Virus record (IMG/VR): IMGVR_UViG_3300043803_000262
Span: 1 to 30,642 of that record
Length of the DNA stretch: 30,642 nt
Source: a virus
Direction: 5' to 3' (one strand)
Shown here: in pieces, positions 8,960 through 18,745 of the stretch
Position numbering within the stretch: position 1 is the first letter of the stretch
Layout: the number at the start of each line of letters is the position of its first letter
Translations under genes and position numbers: made by a program
The notes under the pieces: model-generated
Told to the model about the DNA's origin: nothing
Databases searched by the model: none
The model's input: only the letters and a program-made list of their open reading frames with translations

Positions 8960-9619
8960 ATGGCATATAGCCGTGGTTCAAGCAGTAACATCATCGTGGG
9001 TGCAGCAGCACTATTTACACATGATGCAGGTCCAATCGGACTAGACGAAGATGGTAAGATCACCGATGCTCAAGCAGCATTAGATCTCCCATCGTTTTCA
9101 CAATCAGTAACATCGATCAGAGAAACACTGACACTTGATGATGAGAACTACACAAACGTAGGATACACATCAAATGGTTTGGAACTTGCTTTCCAGCCAG
9201 ACTTCGGTGAGGTAGCAGTAGATCAACTTCTAGACGTTGCTCGTTTATTCAAGCAGGGTATGACAGTTAATCTAAACACAGCCTTTGCAGAAGCAACACT
9301 AGAAAATCTTCTAGTCGCTATTGCAGCAGATGACACAGACAAGACAACCGCAAATGGTGCAACTACTCTGAAGATGTCTGCTGGAGATATTGGTGACGTA
9401 CCACTAGAGCGTGGTCTCGTAGCAGTAGGACCAGGATCTGGTTCTTCTTCAACACCAAAGGAAAGAATCTATGTTGCATACCGTGCACTCTCAATTGAGA
9501 ATGTTACAGTATCAGCAAAGCGTGATGAGGCTTCAATGTTTGAAGTATCATTCCGTCTTCTTCCAAATGACGACGCATCATACGGTAAGATCGTAGATCG
9601 TTCACTAACAGCAGCATAA
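8960..9619 (+). CDS. Major tail tube protein
   Basis: A 219-residue protein that would polymerise into the tail tube. The N-terminus (SRGSSSNIIVGAAALFTHDA), the Gly-linked strands (TNVGYTSNGLELAFQPDFGE), and the C-terminus (MFEVSFRLLPNDDASYGKIV) fit actinophage tube proteins as I know them; the YGKIVDR ending is characteristic. AAAGAGGTGA gives a good ribosome site. Codons are adapted (ATC, CGT, CTT), like the capsid gene and unlike the minor tail genes. It is isolated by its own promoter and a hairpin terminator, consistent with hundreds of copies per virion. It precedes the tail chaperones and tape measure as usual. Confidence 0.88.
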   Translation: MAYSRGSSSNIIVGAAALFTHDAGPIGLDEDGKITDAQAALDLPSFSQSVTSIRETLTLDDENYTNVGYTSNGLELAFQPDFGEVAVDQLLDVARLFKQGMTVNLNTAFAEATLENLLVAIAADDTDKTTANGATTLKMSAGDIGDVPLERGLVAVGPGSGSSSTPKERIYVAYRALSIENVTVSAKRDEASMFEVSFRLLPNDDASYGKIVDRSLTAA

Positions 9620-9635
9620 TACAACTTAATATATG

Positions 9636-9670
9636 AGAGGCTCAATCCTTCGGGGTTGGGCCTTTCTGTT
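9636..9670 (+). terminator. UUCG-loop intrinsic terminator after tube gene
   Basis: GGCTCAATCC (9639-9648), TTCG loop, GGGTTGGGCC (9653-9662): 10 pairs with two G-U, extendable by a few A-T/G-T pairs, then TTTCTGTTT. The C(UUCG)G tetraloop is exceptionally stable. It sits 16 nt after the tube stop and directly before the promoter of the long chaperone gene. Confidence 0.85.
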
Positions 9671-9679
9671 TGGTATACT
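9671..9679 (+). promoter_or_regulatory. Extended -10 promoter, leaderless start of long chaperone
   Basis: TGGTATACT with TATACT at 9674-9679 and a 6-nt spacer to ATG 9686, so +1 should be the A of the start codon. The terminator stem occupies the -35 region, so recognition would have to rely on the TG extension. There is no Shine-Dalgarno. Confidence 0.6.
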
Positions 9680-9685
9680 TATATA

Positions 9686-10366
9686 ATGGCAACAAGAGTT
9701 TATGATAAAAAACAGTTTAGTTTAGTAGACGGTACTGTCATTTCTGCATCCCCTCTCAAAATAAAGTATCTTAGAGAGTTTTTAGATGAGTTCGAAACAA
9801 TTAAAAAGGCTACAACAGATGACGAATCAATATCTGTGTTAGTTAACTGTGCACTAATATCAATGCAACAGTATGCTCCACACATTAAGACAGTGGATGA
9901 GTTAGAAGATAATTTAGACCTTCCTACTATATATGAGGTAATAGATATTGCAGCAGGAATTAAGATTAATGAAAAATCTGAAGATACTGTAAAGTCTCAG
10001 GCAGTTGATAGCGGAGCATCCTGGGACACATTAGACTTGGCAAAACTTGAAGCAGAGGCATTTCTCATTGGTATATGGAAAGACTATGAAGAACTAGAAC
10101 AGTCTTTGTCAATGGCAGAACTAACTGCAACAATTAAGATAAAAAGAGAACTAGACTATAGTGATAAAAAGTTTGCTGCTGCTATGCAGGGTGTAGATTT
10201 AGATAAAAACTCTGGTAATAAAAACGCTTGGGAAGATATGAAGGCGAGAGTTTTTAGTAAGGGAACTGCAACTGACGGCAATGATATTCTGGCCCTTCAA
10301 GGCAAAAATGCAGAAATGGCTGGATTCGGTATTGGCATGGGACTAGATTACGAATCATACGAATAG
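9686..10366 (+). CDS. Tail assembly chaperone, long form (G-T fused in one frame)
   Basis: A 226-residue protein. Residues 1-95 form the G-like domain (SLVDGTVISASPLKIKYLRE ... ELEDNLDLPTIYEVIDIAAG), homologous to the whole of the next gene. Residues about 110-226 form the T-like domain (SWDTLDLAKLEAEAFLIGIW, IKIKRELDYSDKKFAAAMQG, ending AGFGIGMGLDYESYE), which in many actinophages is reached only by ribosomal frameshifting. Here both are in one uninterrupted frame. GT-type proteins coat the tape measure and recruit tube subunits. ATG 9686 is preferred to ATG 9656, which lies inside the terminator. Ile codons in the G-like part are ATT/ATA only (0 of 11 ATC), suggesting modest expression. Confidence 0.88.
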   Translation: MATRVYDKKQFSLVDGTVISASPLKIKYLREFLDEFETIKKATTDDESISVLVNCALISMQQYAPHIKTVDELEDNLDLPTIYEVIDIAAGIKINEKSEDTVKSQAVDSGASWDTLDLAKLEAEAFLIGIWKDYEELEQSLSMAELTATIKIKRELDYSDKKFAAAMQGVDLDKNSGNKNAWEDMKARVFSKGTATDGNDILALQGKNAEMAGFGIGMGLDYESYE

Positions 10367-10385
10367 AAAAAATAAGCCTGCGCTA

Positions 10386-10394
10386 TGGTATAAT
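10386..10394 (+). promoter_or_regulatory. Extended -10 promoter for short chaperone
   Basis: TGGTATAAT (TATAAT at 10389-10394) is a perfect extended -10. Start near 10401 gives a leader of about 20 nt containing AAGGAGG (10409-10415) 5 nt before ATG 10421. The short chaperone and tape measure can thus be transcribed apart from the long chaperone. Confidence 0.65.
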
Positions 10395-10420
10395 TGACTA
10401 AACCTTATAAGGAGGAATAA

Positions 10421-10744
10421 ATGGCAACCGCCACTGAAGAAAAAACAGTAACTCTGATCGACGGAACAAAGATCAAGGTAAGACCACTAAAGATATCGCT
10501 ACTTCGTCCATTTATGAAGAAGTTTGAGGATATCGCAAAGGTAGCAGAAGATAACGAAAAGTCTATGGACCTACTTATCGATTGTGTTCAAATCGCTATG
10601 AAGCAATACAAGCCAGAATTGGCGGAAGACAAGGAAGCCCTAGAAGAAAATCTAGACCTTCCAACAGTATACAAGATCGTCGAAGAGGCATCTGGAATTA
10701 GACTTTCAGACGCTTCACTACTTGGCAACCTTGTAAATAACTAA
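10421..10744 (+). CDS. Tail assembly chaperone, short form (G-like paralogue)
   Basis: A 107-residue protein collinear with residues 1-95 of the preceding gene (TLIDGTKIKVRPLKISLLRP; LEENLDLPTVYKIVEEASGI against LEDNLDLPTIYEVIDIAAGI). It ends SLLGNLVNN with a normal stop and lacks the T-like half. It corresponds to the abundant gpG-type chaperone. It has a perfect extended -10 promoter, strong AAGGAGG ribosome site and adapted Ile codons (6 ATC, 1 ATA, 1 ATT), all unlike its paralogue. The tape measure starts 18 nt later. The two genes look like a duplication that replaces the usual frameshift arrangement. Confidence 0.85.
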   Translation: MATATEEKTVTLIDGTKIKVRPLKISLLRPFMKKFEDIAKVAEDNEKSMDLLIDCVQIAMKQYKPELAEDKEALEENLDLPTVYKIVEEASGIRLSDASLLGNLVNN

Positions 10745-10762: not shown

Positions 10763-13700
10763 ATGGCTGATGTTCAATCCAATATTAATGTAAATATTGA
10801 TACGTCTGATGCTTTAGCAAGTCTAAAACTTCTGCAACGTCAAATATCAGCCTTCCATACACAGATGTCAAAGTCTGGTGCAGCAGCATCAGCAGTTTCA
10901 GCAAATCAAGCACAGAACTTGATGAATAGTATAAATGCTACTGGAAAATTCCAAGCATCAATGCGCTCAGTCAAGTCAAGCACAGAGTCTTTTACTGATG
11001 CACTAGAAAAAAATAAATTAACTTCACGAGAGTATTTCAGATATACTGGCGCAGCCACAAAAACTTTTGGCAGATTATTTAAGTCCGAGTTTGAAACAAT
11101 AAATAAGGTAGCCCGTGAACGTGTAAAGGATGTACAAACCCAGTACATCAAGATGGGCCGTGGAGCAAACGGAGCCATTCAGTCAATTGCTGTAAGACCA
11201 CTAGCGCTTGATATGAAAAACCTTGGCACACAAACGGCCATGGCAGCACAAAGACAACAACTTTTAAATCAACTTCTTAAGCAGGGATCTACTAATCTCC
11301 TAAACTTTGGTAAGAATACTCAGTGGGCTGGTCGCCAGTTAATGGTTGGTTTTACAGTACCACTTGCAATGCTAGGCTCTGCAGCAGCAAAAACATTCAT
11401 GGCTATGGAAGAGCAGGCAATTAGATTTAAGCGTGTATATGGAGACATGTTCACAACCAAAGAACAAACACAGGAGATGGTTGAGCAAATCCAAACTTTG
11501 GCAAAAGAATACACAAAGTATGGTGTTGCAGTAGAAGAGACGATGAAGATGGCAGCAGATGCTGCAGCACAAGGTAAGGTTGGAGCAGAACTAACTGCAC
11601 AAGTTTCACAAGCAACAAGGCTTGCAGTGCTTGGCGGTGTAGAACAAGAGCAGGCACTTGAGACAACAATATCAATTACAAACGCTTTTGGTGTTGCTGC
11701 AGAAGATCTAACTAAAAAGATTGACTTCCTTAACGCAGTAGAAAACCAGACTGTAGTATCAATTGAAGATTTAACTATTGCAATCCCAAAGGCTGGACCA
11801 GTTGTTCAGCAACTTGGTGGAGATGTAGAAGATCTTGCATTCTTCCTTACAGCAATGAAAGAAGGTGGAATTAATGCATCAGAAGGTGCTAACGCACTCA
11901 AGTCTGGTCTTGCTTCTTTAATTAATCCATCTGAAAAAGCAGCAGGATTCCTTGCAGATCTTGGCATAAATATTAAGGGAATTGTAGAAGCAAATAAGGG
12001 CGATGTAAAGTCAACAGTTGTTGAATTCTCTAAAGCACTTGATACACTAGATCCACTAAACCGTGCAAGAGCAATCGAGCAGTTGTTCGGCAAGTTCCAG
12101 TTCTCTCGTCTTTCAACACTGTTCCAAAATGTAACAGCAGAAGGAACACAGGCAGCAAGAGTTCTAGAACTTACAAAGAACACAACAGAAGAACTAGCAA
12201 TCTTGTCTGAACGAGAATTAGGAAAGATTGAAGAAACAACAACATACAAGTTTAAAAAAGCAATTGAAGACCTAAAGGTAACCCTTGCTCCAGTTGGAGA
12301 GCAGTTCTTAAAAGCACTAACACCAATTGTTGAATTTGCTGCAAAGATACTAGATAAGTTTAATGATCTTGGGGACGGTAGCAAAAGGTTTATAACTATA
12401 CTAACTGTAGCACTTGGAGCAGTTGGACCAATTGCGCTTATGTCTTTTGGTTTGCTTGCTAACGGTATTGCAAATATAATTAAACTATTTGCAACGCTAA
12501 GAGGTGGATTTCAGAAGGCAGGATCTTCTACCCAGATTCTTGGAGAGCAGACAAACTATTTAACTAAAGAACAACTAGAAGCATCTGCAGTAGCAGCATC
12601 TCTTGATCAGGTTCATCAAAGATTACGGCAAACATTTACATCTGAGGCATCAGCAGTGGGGGCACTTGCTTTGGCGTATCAAAGGGCAATGGCAGCACAG
12701 AGAGCATTTGGAATGCCAGGCGCAGCACGACCTGGAGCAGTTCCTAAGAAGTTTGCAGAGGGCGGAATCATTTCTGGTCCTGGTGGTCCTAAGTCTGACT
12801 CAGTTCCAATCATGGCATCTAATGGCGAAGCAATTATATCTGCAGAAGTTGTTAAAAAGTATCCTGGACTTGTTCAGGGTTTAATTGCAGACAATATCCC
12901 TGGCTACAAGAACGCTGGAGTTGTTGGTTCTAAATCCGTAAAGTTTGGTGGCAGCGATTATGAACTTCCCGCAGGATCACAAACTATTAATGCAATTCAG
13001 GCAAAAGTAAATGGAAGCATTGGAGTAGTTGATGACATAATTGCTCAGGCACTACAAAATCTTGCATCAGAAACAAAGATAAGCACAAAGATGTTTGTTA
13101 AAGAAGTTAGAAGAATTGCTCAAGAACAAGGCAGAAGAGTTGCAGATCTAGGCAAAGAGTTTGCATCTAAGTCTGAAAAAAGAGTAGGTGGCGGAGGTGC
13201 ATATGCTGCACCTAAGTCTCTAGGAAGCCCAGCAGATCAACTAAGAAGAGAGCGTGGTGCAGTCGCTGCAGCAGCAGAAATGGCTCCTGCAAGAGCATCA
13301 GCAAAAGCGATAAGACGTACAATGGAACAGTATGGCGCAACGCAGTCACAGATTGCTAATGCTACACAGATAGACAGATCACACACTGTTGCTGTTTCAA
13401 AGGAACAAAAGGGAGTAAAGACAGGCGCAAAGACTGGTATGAAGTCTCCAGCATGGAATAGTGCGGTATGGACTCCACAAACTGGTGCAGAAAACAACTC
13501 AATCCTTGAAAGCCTTAAGAAGTCCGAAAGATATAGAAAGTTGTATCAAGAGTATTTAGTAAAAACTGGAGCAACAGAAGCACAGATTACATCCATTATG
13601 ACAAATATCAATAATGGTGTTGCATTAACAGAAGAGCAGTTATCTATTCAGGGCAAGGCTCTTAGACAGATTGCTGTTGACTCAAGAACAAATGCTGAGA

Positions 13701-16700
13701 TTGAAAAAAGAACAAGCAAGAACTTTATAATGTATGCAGACGCAGTTGGCCAGGGAGCATTAGCAAGAGAAAAGGTTCTTGCAAGACAGCCTAAGCAATT
13801 GAGAGAATTGACAATAAGAAATCAAAAGGCTATTCAGGCTATTGCAGAAGAGTTGCCAAACGCAGCAGCACTAGCACTACAAACACAATCTCCATCACGA
13901 AAAATGCGTAAGGTAGGACAGGATGCAGGCGCTGGACTAATTCTTGGAGCAAGAGAATATATTGACGATGCAAAAGCAACAGGGCAAGCACTTGGGGCAG
14001 CAACTGTTCAGGGATCACAGTCAAAGGCTGCAGCATCAAGAACAGCACTTTATGGCACGGGACCAATTGATGCTAATCAAAAGTCATTAAGAAGACAACT
14101 AGAAAGACAGCAAAAGAAAAGTGCTCTTGCACAAAAGTCAGGATACCCAGCATCAGTAATTACGTCTGGCGCAGCAGACTCCGCTAAAAATCAAACACCA
14201 TCTTCAAGAATGTCAACACTTTCTCAAAAGATAAAAGATAGAAGAGCAGAAAGAAAAAATTCAGGAACTGGAATGGGTGCAGGTGGCAAGATGATGGCTG
14301 CTTCTGGAGTCATGATGGGTGCTTCCATGATACCTGGGGCTGTAGGAGATGCAGCACAAAAACTAATGATGCCAATGATGGCTCTTTCAATGATTATGCC
14401 TTTGTTGACAAGCGGTATAGGTATTGCAGTTGTTGCACTTGGAGCAATTGCTGGAGCAATATACTTCTTCAATCAAAGTATTAAAAAAGCAAGACAAGCA
14501 GGAATTGATCTTGCACAGTCAATGACTATGACATCTGAAAAACTTCAAAACCTTTCAGAGATAACTGGAAAAGTTAGTGCAACAGAGGCAGCAGATAGAA
14601 AGCGTCAAAATACATTAACTGGAGCAAGCGGAGTACAAAGAAAGTTTGGCCAGAATGTTCTTGAAAGCGATTTTGGTAAAACACTTTTAGGAGATATTGA
14701 AAAGCAGGCAGCATCTGGTCAAGGAATACAGCAAATTGGAACAAACATTTCTAACAGTCTTGCATACGCAATTGTACAGGGCATCATCACAACAGATCAA
14801 GCACGGAGTATATCTTCAGCCCTTGGTGAGGAATTAAAGAGTTACGAAATACCAGCAATTGTCAGTGGAAAACTTACAACACTTCTTGGACCAAATGGTG
14901 AAAACCTTGCATCAGACCCATTAAAAATTACTCTTGCAATTCAAAAGGAGTCAATGCAAAGACAGGCAGACTTTTTTAAGACTGCGTTAGAGCAATCGGT
15001 TAGTACAACAACATTTACAAATGTTGGACAAGTTATAGGTGGAGGAATTCTTGCAGCAGCAGGAGGTCTAACTGCTGCCCTAACAGGATTTACTGGAATA
15101 GGCGCAGTTGCAGGCGTTGGAATGACAGCAGCAGGGGCCAACTCAGTTCGTGCTGGAATGTCTGATCAAAACAAGAGAACTCAGGTAAATGAAAAACTTG
15201 GATCAGCAGCAATTCAACTTGGACTAGAACAGGTAACCATGAATAATGGTCTCGTAGACTCTTTAAACAAACAGTATGACATCAAAGTTTCTATGGCAAA
15301 AACTGATAAAGAAATTCAAGGCATAGAAAGAGAAAGAGAAGCAGCACTAGTAAAACTTAATGCCAAAAATGCAGAAGCCTTAAATCTTCTTATTGCACAG
15401 AAGGATGCATTTGGCCCAGACGTATTTACAAATGCAATTAACGCATCAATTGATGCAATGTATAAAGAAGGACCAATGAAGGTTTTTGCAGAAGAGGCAA
15501 AGAAAGAACTTAAGGATATTGAAGATGAAGACTTTAGGGCAATGCTTCAACTTCAGTTTGCAAGTGGAGCGCTTGACCCTATAACTGTTACAAAGTTAGC
15601 AAATAATAAAGAAATACAAAGTAAATTTAAGATTTTAGTTGAAACTCAGGGTGCTGAAGATGCAAACGTAGTTATGCAACTTTTAATGAAGGCTGGAGTC
15701 TCAGATCAAAATATTCCAATCTTTATGGATATTCTAAATAAAGATCCAAAGAATTTTGATAAAAACATGAATGCTATATCTGTTCTTTCAAATATGCAAC
15801 AAAAATATGGAATCACCGTTGATGTTAATGATGATGGCGCATCTCAGGTTAAAGAAGTTGTTGCTATAACTGAGAGACTAAAGGGTATAAAAGGCGAAGA
15901 ACTAACAAAGCAAGCATTTCTTGATTTGGGAATAACTGGAGACATGACTTCAGACGAGTTTAATAAGTTGTGGACAACCTTGGTGGGAACATCTAAGACA
16001 ATTAATAAGAGCGTTGTTGTTGATTTTGTCGCTGCTGGAGACAAGAATGTCCTCTCTGCCTATCTTGCCTCAGAAGGAATTCCACAACTTAAGGGTCGTG
16101 GCGCAGCAAATCAAAAGAAAAGGCTTCAGAAAAAAGCAAACGCCTGGCTTGTTGGAAGACAAGGAAAGATTGTCGATGACAAAAAGACAACTGGAGTTGT
16201 TCCTGGCACTGGAGACAAAGACAAGGTAGACTCTTCTCCTCTGGACGATTTGGTCAAGAGACTTAGAGATGTAAGAAAAAATCAAATTAAGGTTACTGAA
16301 GGATGGATGGCATCATCTAAGACACTAAATAAACTGTTTGGTGGAAAAAAGACTATTGGAATATTTAGCGGTATTGAAAATGATATGAGAAAACTGGGAG
16401 CGGGAGAAGACCTAATTGATCTTATAACAGGTATGGATCCAGCAGAGTATGAAGAACAAAAAGATAAATTATTTAACTTTGATGAAAATGGAAACATTTC
16501 AGGATTAAAAGATAATGCTCAAAGTATTCAAGACGCACTACAATCAATCAAACTTGGAGAGTTTGTAAGTGACCAAGAAAAGATGGCTAAGCAAATTGGA
16601 AATCAGGTTACAGCATTAGGTAGACTAAAGGCAGCAGGCATTGACGGGTCTGTTGCTCTAGAAGCAGTAGCAGATGCAACTTTTGCAGCAGCAATTGCAA

Positions 16701-18745
16701 ATAAAGATTTAGATGATAAGCAAATAAAACAGATTGCTGATGCTTGGAAAATAGCAACTGCAGAAAAAAGAAACTACCTTGCTCTTGAAGCATTACAGGC
16801 TGAAGAAACAATGCTAGATGATAATGTTGCACTTTTGCAAAGACTGACCGAAGTAATGGGTGTGTTTACACAGGAGCAACTTAATGCAATTATGCAAAGC
16901 GAAAACCTTAAAAAAGCATTAATTAACTTGTCAAGTGTAAAACCAGGAACTGAAGGATACCAAAGGTTCTTGGATGTTCTTAAGAAGGCATTAAACAAAG
17001 AAAAAATTCAGTTGCAGATTGATGCTGTTTCTATTGAAGGAATGCAAAAGATATTTGATCAAGGTTTTTCAACAGCAATGGAGAGAGTTGACGTTGAAGA
17101 AAAAAGACTAACATTAAAATTTGATGCAGAGACAGAGGGTTTGCAAGCAACAATTGACGCTGCACAAGATAAAATTGATGAGGCTCAGTATAAAATTGAT
17201 GACAAAGAAGCAGCATTAAGAGCAATTGAAAAGCAAGAAGAAAAAATTAATGAAAAATATGACGACAGAATTAAGGCCTTGGACGAAGTTGAAAAGGCTA
17301 ACGCTGCAATTTCGCAACAGCAAAAGGGTCAATTAAGTCTTGCAGAGGCATTAACTTCTGGAGACATTGCAGCAGCAGCAAAGGCTGCTCAAGAAATGAG
17401 AGCACAAGCAGCAGAAGATGCAGTGACAAAAGAAAGAGAAGCATTAGAAAAGGCTAGAGAAAATGAACTATCAAAAGTAACATCAGGTGGAAAAACTAGA
17501 AAAGTTTTAGAGCAAGAAATTAAGGCTTTAGAAGATTATATCTTTGACTTAGAAGAAAAAGATATTGAAAAGCCAGAAGAAGAAATCAGAAAAAAGAACA
17601 TAGTTCTTAGAGATCAAATTAAGGAACTTGACAAGGTTAGAAGAAAATGGGAAGAATACCAACAAAGAATTGATGAGGCACGAGTTAACAATGCTAGGTC
17701 TCAGCAAGCAATAGACAATGCAGAAAAAATTATTCAGCCTCTTATTGATGCATATAAAAATGAAAAGGTAGATATTATATTACCAGCAGGAGGCTTTGAA
17801 GACCCAGTACCAGCAGATCCTACTCCTATCCCAGGACCAGGAAATGAACTAACATACTGCCCGTCACTTGGCAGAAATGTTCCAACAGTTGGTTTTCCAG
17901 GCAACTGTCCAGGAGCAGAGTCTTCAGGAAATCCAAACCCAGAAGCCTTGGTTTTCTGTCCTTCGTTAGGAAGAAACGTTCCATCAAGTGGTTTCCCAGG
18001 AAACTGTCCAGGTGGAGATTCAGCCACAACACCTACAAAAAAGGGTAATGCTGATCCAACCCCACCACCAACATCAAAGCCAACCCTGGCAGAGATACAA
18101 AAGAAAGATCCTTTCTATAACAGTTCTCTTTTGCACAGAGAGGAGTTAGACAAAATTGCTCAAGATGCTAAAAAGAATTTGATGCTATTTAATCAAAACA
18201 TGAATGTTAGAGAAGTAACAAAGAATGCTGGAACAACACCAGGGCTTCACCTAAAGAGTTTGTATGACCAGCAAAATGCAGCAGCAATTCAAAATGCACT
18301 AAAGCCAACACCAGGAATGCTTGCACAAGAGAAGGCTGTTAGAGATGCAGCAGAAAAAGCAGCAGCACAAAAGAAAGCAGCAGCCGCTCCAAAGTCGCTG
18401 TTCTCAATGCCTAAAGGAATAGGAAAGGGCTACTCTATGGGTGGTCTAATACCTAAGTACTTTGCTGTTGGTGGTTTTGCAAAGGGTACAGATACAGTGC
18501 CAGCAATGCTAACCCCAGGAGAATTTATTATGAGCAAGTATGCAGTAGACTCATATGGAGTAGACAATATGAGAAAGATTAATAATGGTGACTCAATTGG
18601 CGGTACAGTGTATAATAATACATATACATTAACAGTTAATGCTAAGACAGACGCAAATCCAAACGATATTGCACAGGCAGTAATGTCAACTATTAAGCGT
18701 GTTGATGATAGAAGAATTAGAGGAGTGTCATTAAATGGCCGATGA
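10763..18745 (+). CDS. Tape measure protein
   Basis: A 2660-residue protein, by far the longest gene, right after the tail chaperones. It sets tail length and is probably ejected with the DNA. The N-terminal third is helical with a TP901-type core (ALETTISITNAFGVAAEDLT, GLASLINPSEKAAGFLADLG). Hydrophobic, possibly membrane-active segments lie at about 196-214, 542-580, 1174-1236 and 1420-1462. Two family-typical Gly-rich motifs occur: GGIISGPGGPKSDSVPIMAS (about 667) and VGGFAKGTDTVPAMLTPGEF (near 2568). A long charged coiled coil spans about 2090-2350, followed by a twin cysteine repeat (2366-2415) holding the only cysteines I can find. AAAGAGGTG provides the ribosome site; ATG 10763 is chosen over the out-of-frame ATG at 10759. 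Confidence 0.95.
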   Translation: MADVQSNINVNIDTSDALASLKLLQRQISAFHTQMSKSGAAASAVSANQAQNLMNSINATGKFQASMRSVKSSTESFTDALEKNKLTSREYFRYTGAATKTFGRLFKSEFETINKVARERVKDVQTQYIKMGRGANGAIQSIAVRPLALDMKNLGTQTAMAAQRQQLLNQLLKQGSTNLLNFGKNTQWAGRQLMVGFTVPLAMLGSAAAKTFMAMEEQAIRFKRVYGDMFTTKEQTQEMVEQIQTLAKEYTKYGVAVEETMKMAADAAAQGKVGAELTAQVSQATRLAVLGGVEQEQALETTISITNAFGVAAEDLTKKIDFLNAVENQTVVSIEDLTIAIPKAGPVVQQLGGDVEDLAFFLTAMKEGGINASEGANALKSGLASLINPSEKAAGFLADLGINIKGIVEANKGDVKSTVVEFSKALDTLDPLNRARAIEQLFGKFQFSRLSTLFQNVTAEGTQAARVLELTKNTTEELAILSERELGKIEETTTYKFKKAIEDLKVTLAPVGEQFLKALTPIVEFAAKILDKFNDLGDGSKRFITILTVALGAVGPIALMSFGLLANGIANIIKLFATLRGGFQKAGSSTQILGEQTNYLTKEQLEASAVAASLDQVHQRLRQTFTSEASAVGALALAYQRAMAAQRAFGMPGAARPGAVPKKFAEGGIISGPGGPKSDSVPIMASNGEAIISAEVVKKYPGLVQGLIADNIPGYKNAGVVGSKSVKFGGSDYELPAGSQTINAIQAKVNGSIGVVDDIIAQALQNLASETKISTKMFVKEVRRIAQEQGRRVADLGKEFASKSEKRVGGGGAYAAPKSLGSPADQLRRERGAVAAAAEMAPARASAKAIRRTMEQYGATQSQIANATQIDRSHTVAVSKEQKGVKTGAKTGMKSPAWNSAVWTPQTGAENNSILESLKKSERYRKLYQEYLVKTGATEAQITSIMTNINNGVALTEEQLSIQGKALRQIAVDSRTNAEIEKRTSKNFIMYADAVGQGALAREKVLARQPKQLRELTIRNQKAIQAIAEELPNAAALALQTQSPSRKMRKVGQDAGAGLILGAREYIDDAKATGQALGAATVQGSQSKAAASRTALYGTGPIDANQKSLRRQLERQQKKSALAQKSGYPASVITSGAADSAKNQTPSSRMSTLSQKIKDRRAERKNSGTGMGAGGKMMAASGVMMGASMIPGAVGDAAQKLMMPMMALSMIMPLLTSGIGIAVVALGAIAGAIYFFNQSIKKARQAGIDLAQSMTMTSEKLQNLSEITGKVSATEAADRKRQNTLTGASGVQRKFGQNVLESDFGKTLLGDIEKQAASGQGIQQIGTNISNSLAYAIVQGIITTDQARSISSALGEELKSYEIPAIVSGKLTTLLGPNGENLASDPLKITLAIQKESMQRQADFFKTALEQSVSTTTFTNVGQVIGGGILAAAGGLTAALTGFTGIGAVAGVGMTAAGANSVRAGMSDQNKRTQVNEKLGSAAIQLGLEQVTMNNGLVDSLNKQYDIKVSMAKTDKEIQGIEREREAALVKLNAKNAEALNLLIAQKDAFGPDVFTNAINASIDAMYKEGPMKVFAEEAKKELKDIEDEDFRAMLQLQFASGALDPITVTKLANNKEIQSKFKILVETQGAEDANVVMQLLMKAGVSDQNIPIFMDILNKDPKNFDKNMNAISVLSNMQQKYGITVDVNDDGASQVKEVVAITERLKGIKGEELTKQAFLDLGITGDMTSDEFNKLWTTLVGTSKTINKSVVVDFVAAGDKNVLSAYLASEGIPQLKGRGAANQKKRLQKKANAWLVGRQGKIVDDKKTTGVVPGTGDKDKVDSSPLDDLVKRLRDVRKNQIKVTEGWMASSKTLNKLFGGKKTIGIFSGIENDMRKLGAGEDLIDLITGMDPAEYEEQKDKLFNFDENGNISGLKDNAQSIQDALQSIKLGEFVSDQEKMAKQIGNQVTALGRLKAAGIDGSVALEAVADATFAAAIANKDLDDKQIKQIADAWKIATAEKRNYLALEALQAEETMLDDNVALLQRLTEVMGVFTQEQLNAIMQSENLKKALINLSSVKPGTEGYQRFLDVLKKALNKEKIQLQIDAVSIEGMQKIFDQGFSTAMERVDVEEKRLTLKFDAETEGLQATIDAAQDKIDEAQYKIDDKEAALRAIEKQEEKINEKYDDRIKALDEVEKANAAISQQQKGQLSLAEALTSGDIAAAAKAAQEMRAQAAEDAVTKEREALEKARENELSKVTSGGKTRKVLEQEIKALEDYIFDLEEKDIEKPEEEIRKKNIVLRDQIKELDKVRRKWEEYQQRIDEARVNNARSQQAIDNAEKIIQPLIDAYKNEKVDIILPAGGFEDPVPADPTPIPGPGNELTYCPSLGRNVPTVGFPGNCPGAESSGNPNPEALVFCPSLGRNVPSSGFPGNCPGGDSATTPTKKGNADPTPPPTSKPTLAEIQKKDPFYNSSLLHREELDKIAQDAKKNLMLFNQNMNVREVTKNAGTTPGLHLKSLYDQQNAAAIQNALKPTPGMLAQEKAVRDAAEKAAAQKKAAAAPKSLFSMPKGIGKGYSMGGLIPKYFAVGGFAKGTDTVPAMLTPGEFIMSKYAVDSYGVDNMRKINNGDSIGGTVYNNTYTLTVNAKTDANPNDIAQAVMSTIKRVDDRRIRGVSLNGR
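17852..18014 (+). repeat. Twin cysteine-containing repeat in the tape measure gene
   Basis: Two copies, 99 bp apart, encode CPSLGRNVPTVGFPGNCPG and CPSLGRNVPSSGFPGNCPG. Cysteines fall at residues 2366, 2382, 2399 and 2415, giving C-x15-C, x16, C-x15-C. Pro/Gly-rich linkers surround both copies, between the coiled coil and the C-terminal Gly motif. Confidence 0.85.

Follow-up and report, generated by a model that had tools for sequence, protein, structure and literature searches.

The window, by which the whole analysed stretch of 30,642 nucleotides is meant (IMG/VR virus record IMGVR_UViG_3300043803_000262, positions 1 to 30,642), carries two neighbouring genes homologous to phage tail assembly chaperone genes, a long one (GT) followed after a spacer of 54 nt by a short one (G). 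Both lie in the interval between the genes of the major tail protein and the tape measure protein, which is the place of chaperone genes of the G/GT type (Table 1). An earlier note, made from the sequence of this DNA without database searches, had described the long protein as the product of one uninterrupted frame and the second gene as encoding a G-like domain only; both descriptions agree with the present analysis, and the two peptides quoted in that note occur in the translations. A longer alternative GT reading frame from TTG at 9656, upstream of the -10 element, was considered unlikely. The C-terminal part of the tape measure protein contains, in translation, two copies of a cysteine-bearing motif (CPSLGRNVPxxGFPGNCPG).

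Table 1. Features of the tail assembly chaperone locus and its flanking genes in the window.
Feature	Position	Strand	Remarks
Major tail protein gene (context)	8960..9619	+	PHROG 2175 'protein with Ig domain', E 7e-32; position matches annotated Streptomyces phage gene
Terminator-like hairpin	9635..9666	+	3' of the major tail gene, just 5' of the GT promoter
Extended -10 of the GT gene, TGGTATACT	9671..9679	+	Ends 6 nt 5' of the GT ATG; leaderless transcript predicted
Long tail assembly chaperone gene, GT	9686..10366	+	226 aa, single frame; ATG at 9686, stop codon 10364-10366, 226 codons
G-like domain of GT	~9686-9985	+	
T-like domain of GT	~10010-10363	+	
Extended -10 of the short gene, TGGTATAAT	10386..10394	+	
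Shine-Dalgarno sequence of the short gene, AAGGAGG	10409..10415	+	
Short tail assembly chaperone gene, G	10421..10744	+	107 aa; paralogous to the G-like part of GT and not followed by a T domain
Tape measure protein gene (context)	10763..18745	+	2660 aa; Pfam PF10145 PhageMin_Tail, E 9e-26

Alignment of the two chaperones demonstrated their homology, with identity at 44 of 100 residues (BLASTP, E 2e-26). Both proteins matched PHROG 10504 (E 4e-20 for GT and 2e-20 for short G), and PHROG 10474 was matched by GT only, through its C-terminal half (E 6e-17). Both were also homologous to annotated tail assembly chaperones of Streptomyces phages in tblastn searches, with E values down to 3e-34 for the long and 1e-14 for the short protein. 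At the sequence level, the two products known from chaperones of this type, G and G plus T, are thus present as two reading frames.

Sequence searches of Pfam and the PDB revealed no chaperone family above threshold. Near-matches to Rubis-subs-bind (17 of the 57 members scanned), SGTA_dimer (8 of 57) and, for GT, DUF2577 were taken as chance, and GP24_25, a family of Mycobacteriophage tail assembly proteins, was matched weakly in one of the 57 members scanned (E 0.039). The structural model of short G (mean pLDDT 78.5) comprises a beta hairpin and helices; the first domain of the GT model (mean pLDDT 69.6) has the same form, and its end is poorly defined. The HK97 tail assembly chaperone (2ob9) was the first-ranked but weak PDB match of the short-G model (Foldseek, E 0.16), and the best match among viral models was a protein from an uncultured phage, bearing the name tail assembly chaperone (E 3.7e-7). 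In VIA-align comparisons with 2ob9, short G reached Z 4.1 (rmsd 4.8, 86 residues aligned, rank 4, tied with unrelated bundles) and GT reached Z 4.2 (rmsd 4.7, 86 aligned, rank 10, tied with unrelated proteins). Since unrelated helical bundles scored the same Z, the fold serves as supporting evidence only.

Relatives of the locus were sorted by G and T profile HMMs, which gave 197 distinct sequences among the matches listed (a first pass of the classification had comprised 316 records, 194 of them distinct). The same pair, a fused GT with a short G downstream, was found in 160 of the 197, and such sharing indicates that the pair is more than a chance arrangement; the order noted earlier for the window, long copy first, is conserved among these relatives. 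Two further sequences have GT on contigs that end 63 and 109 nt past the T match, and T is in frame with G in all 162 fused sequences. The remaining 35, including the Streptomyces phages of Stanwilliamsviridae, have only one G gene, and T follows it in the -1 frame. No intermediate with both arrangements occurs among the 197 distinct sequences. Likewise, among the matches listed, no fused GT lacking a short G was seen on contigs long enough to tell, and the loci listed from scans of viral contigs (at most 80 in each of three scans) and of genome contigs included no transitional phage combining frameshifting with a second G. Carriers of the fused pair are mostly uncultured phages, and IMG/VR scans yielded hundreds of uncultured relatives.

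In the annotated phage collection, GT matched 127 Streptomyces and three Rhodococcus records at E 0.01. Among the matches listed there (60 of 139 records), all 55 Streptomyces rows consisted of two joined pieces, which a change of frame would produce. In the 14 phage regions examined, T follows G in the -1 frame and a second G gene was not found; the G match of the two Rhodococcus regions is weak (15-25 bits) and split within one frame. Stanwilliamsviridae such as Patelgo, MulchMansion and Wakanda resemble the window in having homologous G and T domains and an identical succession of genes between major tail and tape measure proteins, with about 38% identity over GT for the best records and 43-47% in the T domain for three that were compared. 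Unlike the window, they have one gene, in which CCCAAAT or CCCGGAA precedes a T domain read in the -1 frame, and a second G was not found.

Few recoding events of phages are as widely conserved as frameshifting in the tail chaperone gene, and its probable site can be recognized in the single-gene relatives. The overlap between G and T contains a canonical slippery heptamer in 28 of the 35 frameshift sequences and CCCGGAA in the other seven. Of the first 32 distinct frameshift sequences examined, 25 had an in-frame canonical X XXY YYZ heptamer inside the interval to which the shift is restricted, comprising CCCAAAT or CCCAAAC in 22, GGGAAAA in two Rhodococcus phages and AAACCCA in one (L298); three further frameshift sequences have CCCAAAT or CCCAAAC in frame. 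The CCCGGAA motif occupies the same place but falls outside the strict XXXYYYZ pattern, and its seven carriers (L083, L088, L091, L092, L093, L095 and L096) are all Streptomyces phages annotated as members of the subfamily Boydwoodruffvirinae. A stop codon of the -1 frame lies directly 5' of the CCC or GGG of the site in 14 of the 32, which would confine the shift to that place or later.

No conserved heptamer was detected at the corresponding place in the fused group (162 GT genes). It is conceivable that one of the two genes is still frameshifted in a part, at least, of the group, the second copy then being an addition to frameshifting and no substitute for it. In-frame heptamers do occur somewhere in 112 of the 162 GT genes, the commonest being T-runs in the T domain (34 occurrences), which are not conserved. 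At the GT junction itself they are present in 14 of 162, all as A-runs (AAAAAAA, AAAAAAG and the like; for example in L199, L228 and L244), where a -1 slip would meet a stop 5-16 codons on, the product being a short protein like G. The short gene has TTTAAAC or TTTAAAT in frame close to its 3' end in 18 of 155 cases (for example in L194, L230 and L079), with an identical distance to the stop in 15 of the 18. Slippage there would add only 4-20 residues, ending no more than 35 nt past the normal stop and never reaching a T domain, and GT is in any case already encoded in one frame. The junction heptamer is absent from 148 of 162 GT genes and the end heptamer from 137 of 155 short genes, the window being among both, so that these minority heptamers do not explain the pair. 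Residual frameshifting could occur in some members of the fused group, but that it operates there beside the duplicate is regarded as very improbable.

The ends of the proteins suggest how the two products may have been shared out. By eye, the tail of short G resembles the 0-frame tail of the single-gene relatives (LSDASLL in the window against LNDPNLL, or LDDAS in L304); over a longer stretch, the window reads GIRLSDASLLGNLVNN and the relatives read GIKLNDPNLLAAA, or GIVLDDASPNR in L304, the slippery codons being altered in the short gene. The linker of GT resembles, also by eye, the linker of the -1-frame product (SGxSW against GSGSTW), as represented by SGASWDTLDLAKLEAE in the window GT and SGSTWEELDLASLEAE in the -1-frame product of Patelgo.

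The starts of the two genes differ in a conserved manner. The short copy has the extended -10 and the AAGGAGG ascribed to it in the earlier note, and the impression given there that the long copy is leaderless is in keeping with the -10 placed just before its ATG and with the finding of no Shine-Dalgarno sequence 5' of it in the window. Among the 160 fused loci in which the sequence 5' of GT was long enough, the best -10 ends exactly 6 nt 5' of the GT start in 143, and a Shine-Dalgarno-like motif occurs in none within the last 18 nt. The match to the -10 suggests that the GT transcript is leaderless. Short G has a Shine-Dalgarno-like motif in 157 of 160 and a -10 at 24-28 nt upstream in 151 of 160, and the corresponding figures for the frameshift genes are 27 of 32 and, for a -10 at 22-28 nt upstream, 26 of 32. 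It follows from this comparison that the short gene resembles the ancestral gene start, whereas the GT start appears derived and of the leaderless type. The scan for two-hexamer sigma-70 promoters did not list the -10 sites of either gene, both of which are extended -10 sites.

The hairpin upstream of GT is also shared by the group, with a median of -23.4 kcal/mol in the stretch 16-62 nt 5' of the GT start (160 fused loci), as against -7.1 kcal/mol when that stretch was shuffled and -3.1 kcal/mol 5' of the short gene. The frameshift genes have -24.5 kcal/mol at 40-95 nt upstream, a stretch that differs in length from the 16-62 nt used for GT.

Within the window, an extended -10 at 5-7 nt before an ATG was found for five of 685 plus-strand ATGs, three of which are gene starts, versus none of 389 on the minus strand. 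At the starts at 1292, 25926, 28826 and 3326, a -10 hexamer lies 3-7 nt before the ATG and a Shine-Dalgarno sequence was not found; the -10 is of the extended type at 1292 and 25926. Leaderless starts may thus be common in this phage, and predicted leaderless transcripts have been described for Cluster O mycobacteriophages (PMC4351075).

The history of the two copies was examined with representatives below 85% identity (72 of 194 distinct sequences). The G-domain tree contained 49 fused representatives and 21 single genes, with L086 and L087 left out for their weak, split G match; the T tree used 24 of the 49 fused representatives, with L086 left out. The G-domain tree separates the two kinds of copy, uniting the GT copies in a clade with support 99/96 and the short copies in a clade with 96/89. 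As first found, this tree groups the single genes of L298 and L304 with the short copies (99/86), so that the two kinds of copy are not sisters. These two are single-gene frameshift phages with an overlap of 19-22 nt, whose T and major tail proteins are nearest to those of the fused group. However, a tree with both copies in one clade was 11.8 log units better than the first (p-AU 0.72), and one grouping the GT copies with L298 and L304 was 9.1 log units better (p-AU 0.64), indicating that the first search was not optimal and that its supports need caution. The T tree nests L298 and L304 inside the fused group, not significantly (p-AU 0.47), and the tree of the major tail protein requires one change of architecture, with weak support (64/32). 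Compared within loci, the two copies share a mean identity of 38.9%, and compared between loci one of 39.7%, which gives no sign of gene conversion and implies that the duplication is old.

Another possible origin of the pair is that the second copy came from another phage, either the fused GT or the short G having been acquired beside a resident chaperone gene. The separate clades of the two copies, the position of L298 and L304 in the first tree and the equal identities within and between loci would all fit such an acquisition. Nevertheless, the likelihood improves when both copies are held together, an old duplication yields the same identities, and a fused GT without short G was not found on the listed contigs long enough to tell; a foreign origin of one copy is therefore regarded as quite unlikely. 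The simplest reading of the trees is a single duplication after L298 and L304 had split off, in which case these two phages possibly represent the state nearest to that before duplication, or else a reversal. It may also be that L298 and L304 lost one copy and returned to frameshifting, or that one copy of the pair was acquired from another phage.

The two copies also differ in rate. From 3000 sampled pairs, those with 0.15<dS<1.5 were kept, and median dN/dS was 0.26 for the G domain of GT (1050 pairs), 0.14 for the T domain (671) and 0.12 for short G (1104); none of the kept pairs exceeded 1. The rate for the G domain of GT is thus about double that for short G, which would suit a minority partner under weaker constraint. 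Both this difference in rate and the divergence of the copies to about 40% identity could also be expected if short G were no longer the partner of GT and had taken up a new role, for example as a chaperone for one region of the tape measure protein, with GT alone acting as in lambda. On the other hand, the two genes are linked in 160 of 160 distinct loci long enough to tell and are sited between the major tail and tape measure genes, the short copy is the more strongly conserved one, and its ancestral-type promoter and Shine-Dalgarno sequence fit the role of an abundant G, which makes a new role unlikely.

The preferred reading, to which a probability of about 0.82 may be assigned, is that short (G) and long (GT) chaperones are the products of the two genes and that a duplication split the two products of a frameshifting gene between two genes. 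The proposal of the earlier note that duplication replaces frameshifting is supported, as far as sequence comparison can indicate, by the homology and architecture of the two genes, their conservation, the long-first order, the slippery site of the relatives and its absence from both copies, the contrast of start types, and the single-gene -1 frameshift relatives, which provide an outgroup that the earlier note lacked. According to this reading, the ancestor would have had one gene in which a -1 slip of the ribosome late in G, at a site like C CCA AAY, gave GT as the minor product, and the single-gene relatives still appear to make GT by slippage. After duplication of the gene, the upstream copy would have been fixed in the shifted reading, with G and T in one frame and a leaderless start, and the downstream copy would have kept the unshifted product with a promoter and Shine-Dalgarno sequence of ancestral type, losing T and the slippery site. 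Both proteins are presumably made, and many G and few GT would coat the tape measure protein as in lambda. The ratio of G to GT would now be set by transcription and translation initiation, leaderless in one gene and led by a Shine-Dalgarno sequence in the other, and not by slippage. That frameshifting was replaced once and long ago, and that control of the ratio moved to initiation, with a leaderless start for scarce GT and a Shine-Dalgarno-led start for abundant G, is held with more reserve, as a probable scenario.

In lambda, many gpG and few gpGT bind the tape measure protein at about 30:1, with T binding the tail tube protein (PMC5009743). Lambda makes GT by -1 slippage, whereas a separate gene encodes it here, and by analogy with that account a lambda-like function would be expected. 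Some T4-like phages were reported to have separate genes for a short and for a fused long chaperone, with no frameshifting involved, according to the authors of PRFect, who cite Vladimirov et al. 2022 (PMC10885494), and poly-T frameshift signals in T4-like chaperone genes were attributed to the same work in another article (PMC12846349). Going by these accounts, this kind of arrangement was already known. The T4-like pair is like the present one in its separate short gene, a long gene that is a fusion, and the absence of frameshifting, a likeness that concerns the architecture as described there; it can be contrasted with the present case, as far as that description extends, in that a slippery site persists in the relatives here, a leaderless long gene is predicted, and the short gene has a Shine-Dalgarno sequence. 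What is new here is the occurrence in an actinophage-related lineage with homologous frameshifting relatives, the long-then-short order and the conserved difference between the starts. In the parts of the literature searched, neither such a pair nor a leaderless chaperone gene was seen to be described.

As a recoded single gene and a split pair occur in one homologous tail module, recoding and duplication become directly comparable, and a switch from slipping to gene duplication would be visible inside one virus lineage. The contrast between leaderless and Shine-Dalgarno-led starts suggests how a needed protein ratio could persist without slippage. For annotators, a missing slippery site does not imply a missing chaperone. 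The chaperone is annotated as a two-piece join in Patelgo, Yaboi and Francesca, and in the Streptomyces records among the matches listed the T part is often annotated as a separate hypothetical protein or chaperone gene without a frameshift. One sequence of the frameshift type (L267, CAINGU010000031.1) sits in a metagenome-assembled genome labelled as an uncultured cyanobacterium, which may be a misbinned phage contig or a clue to the host.
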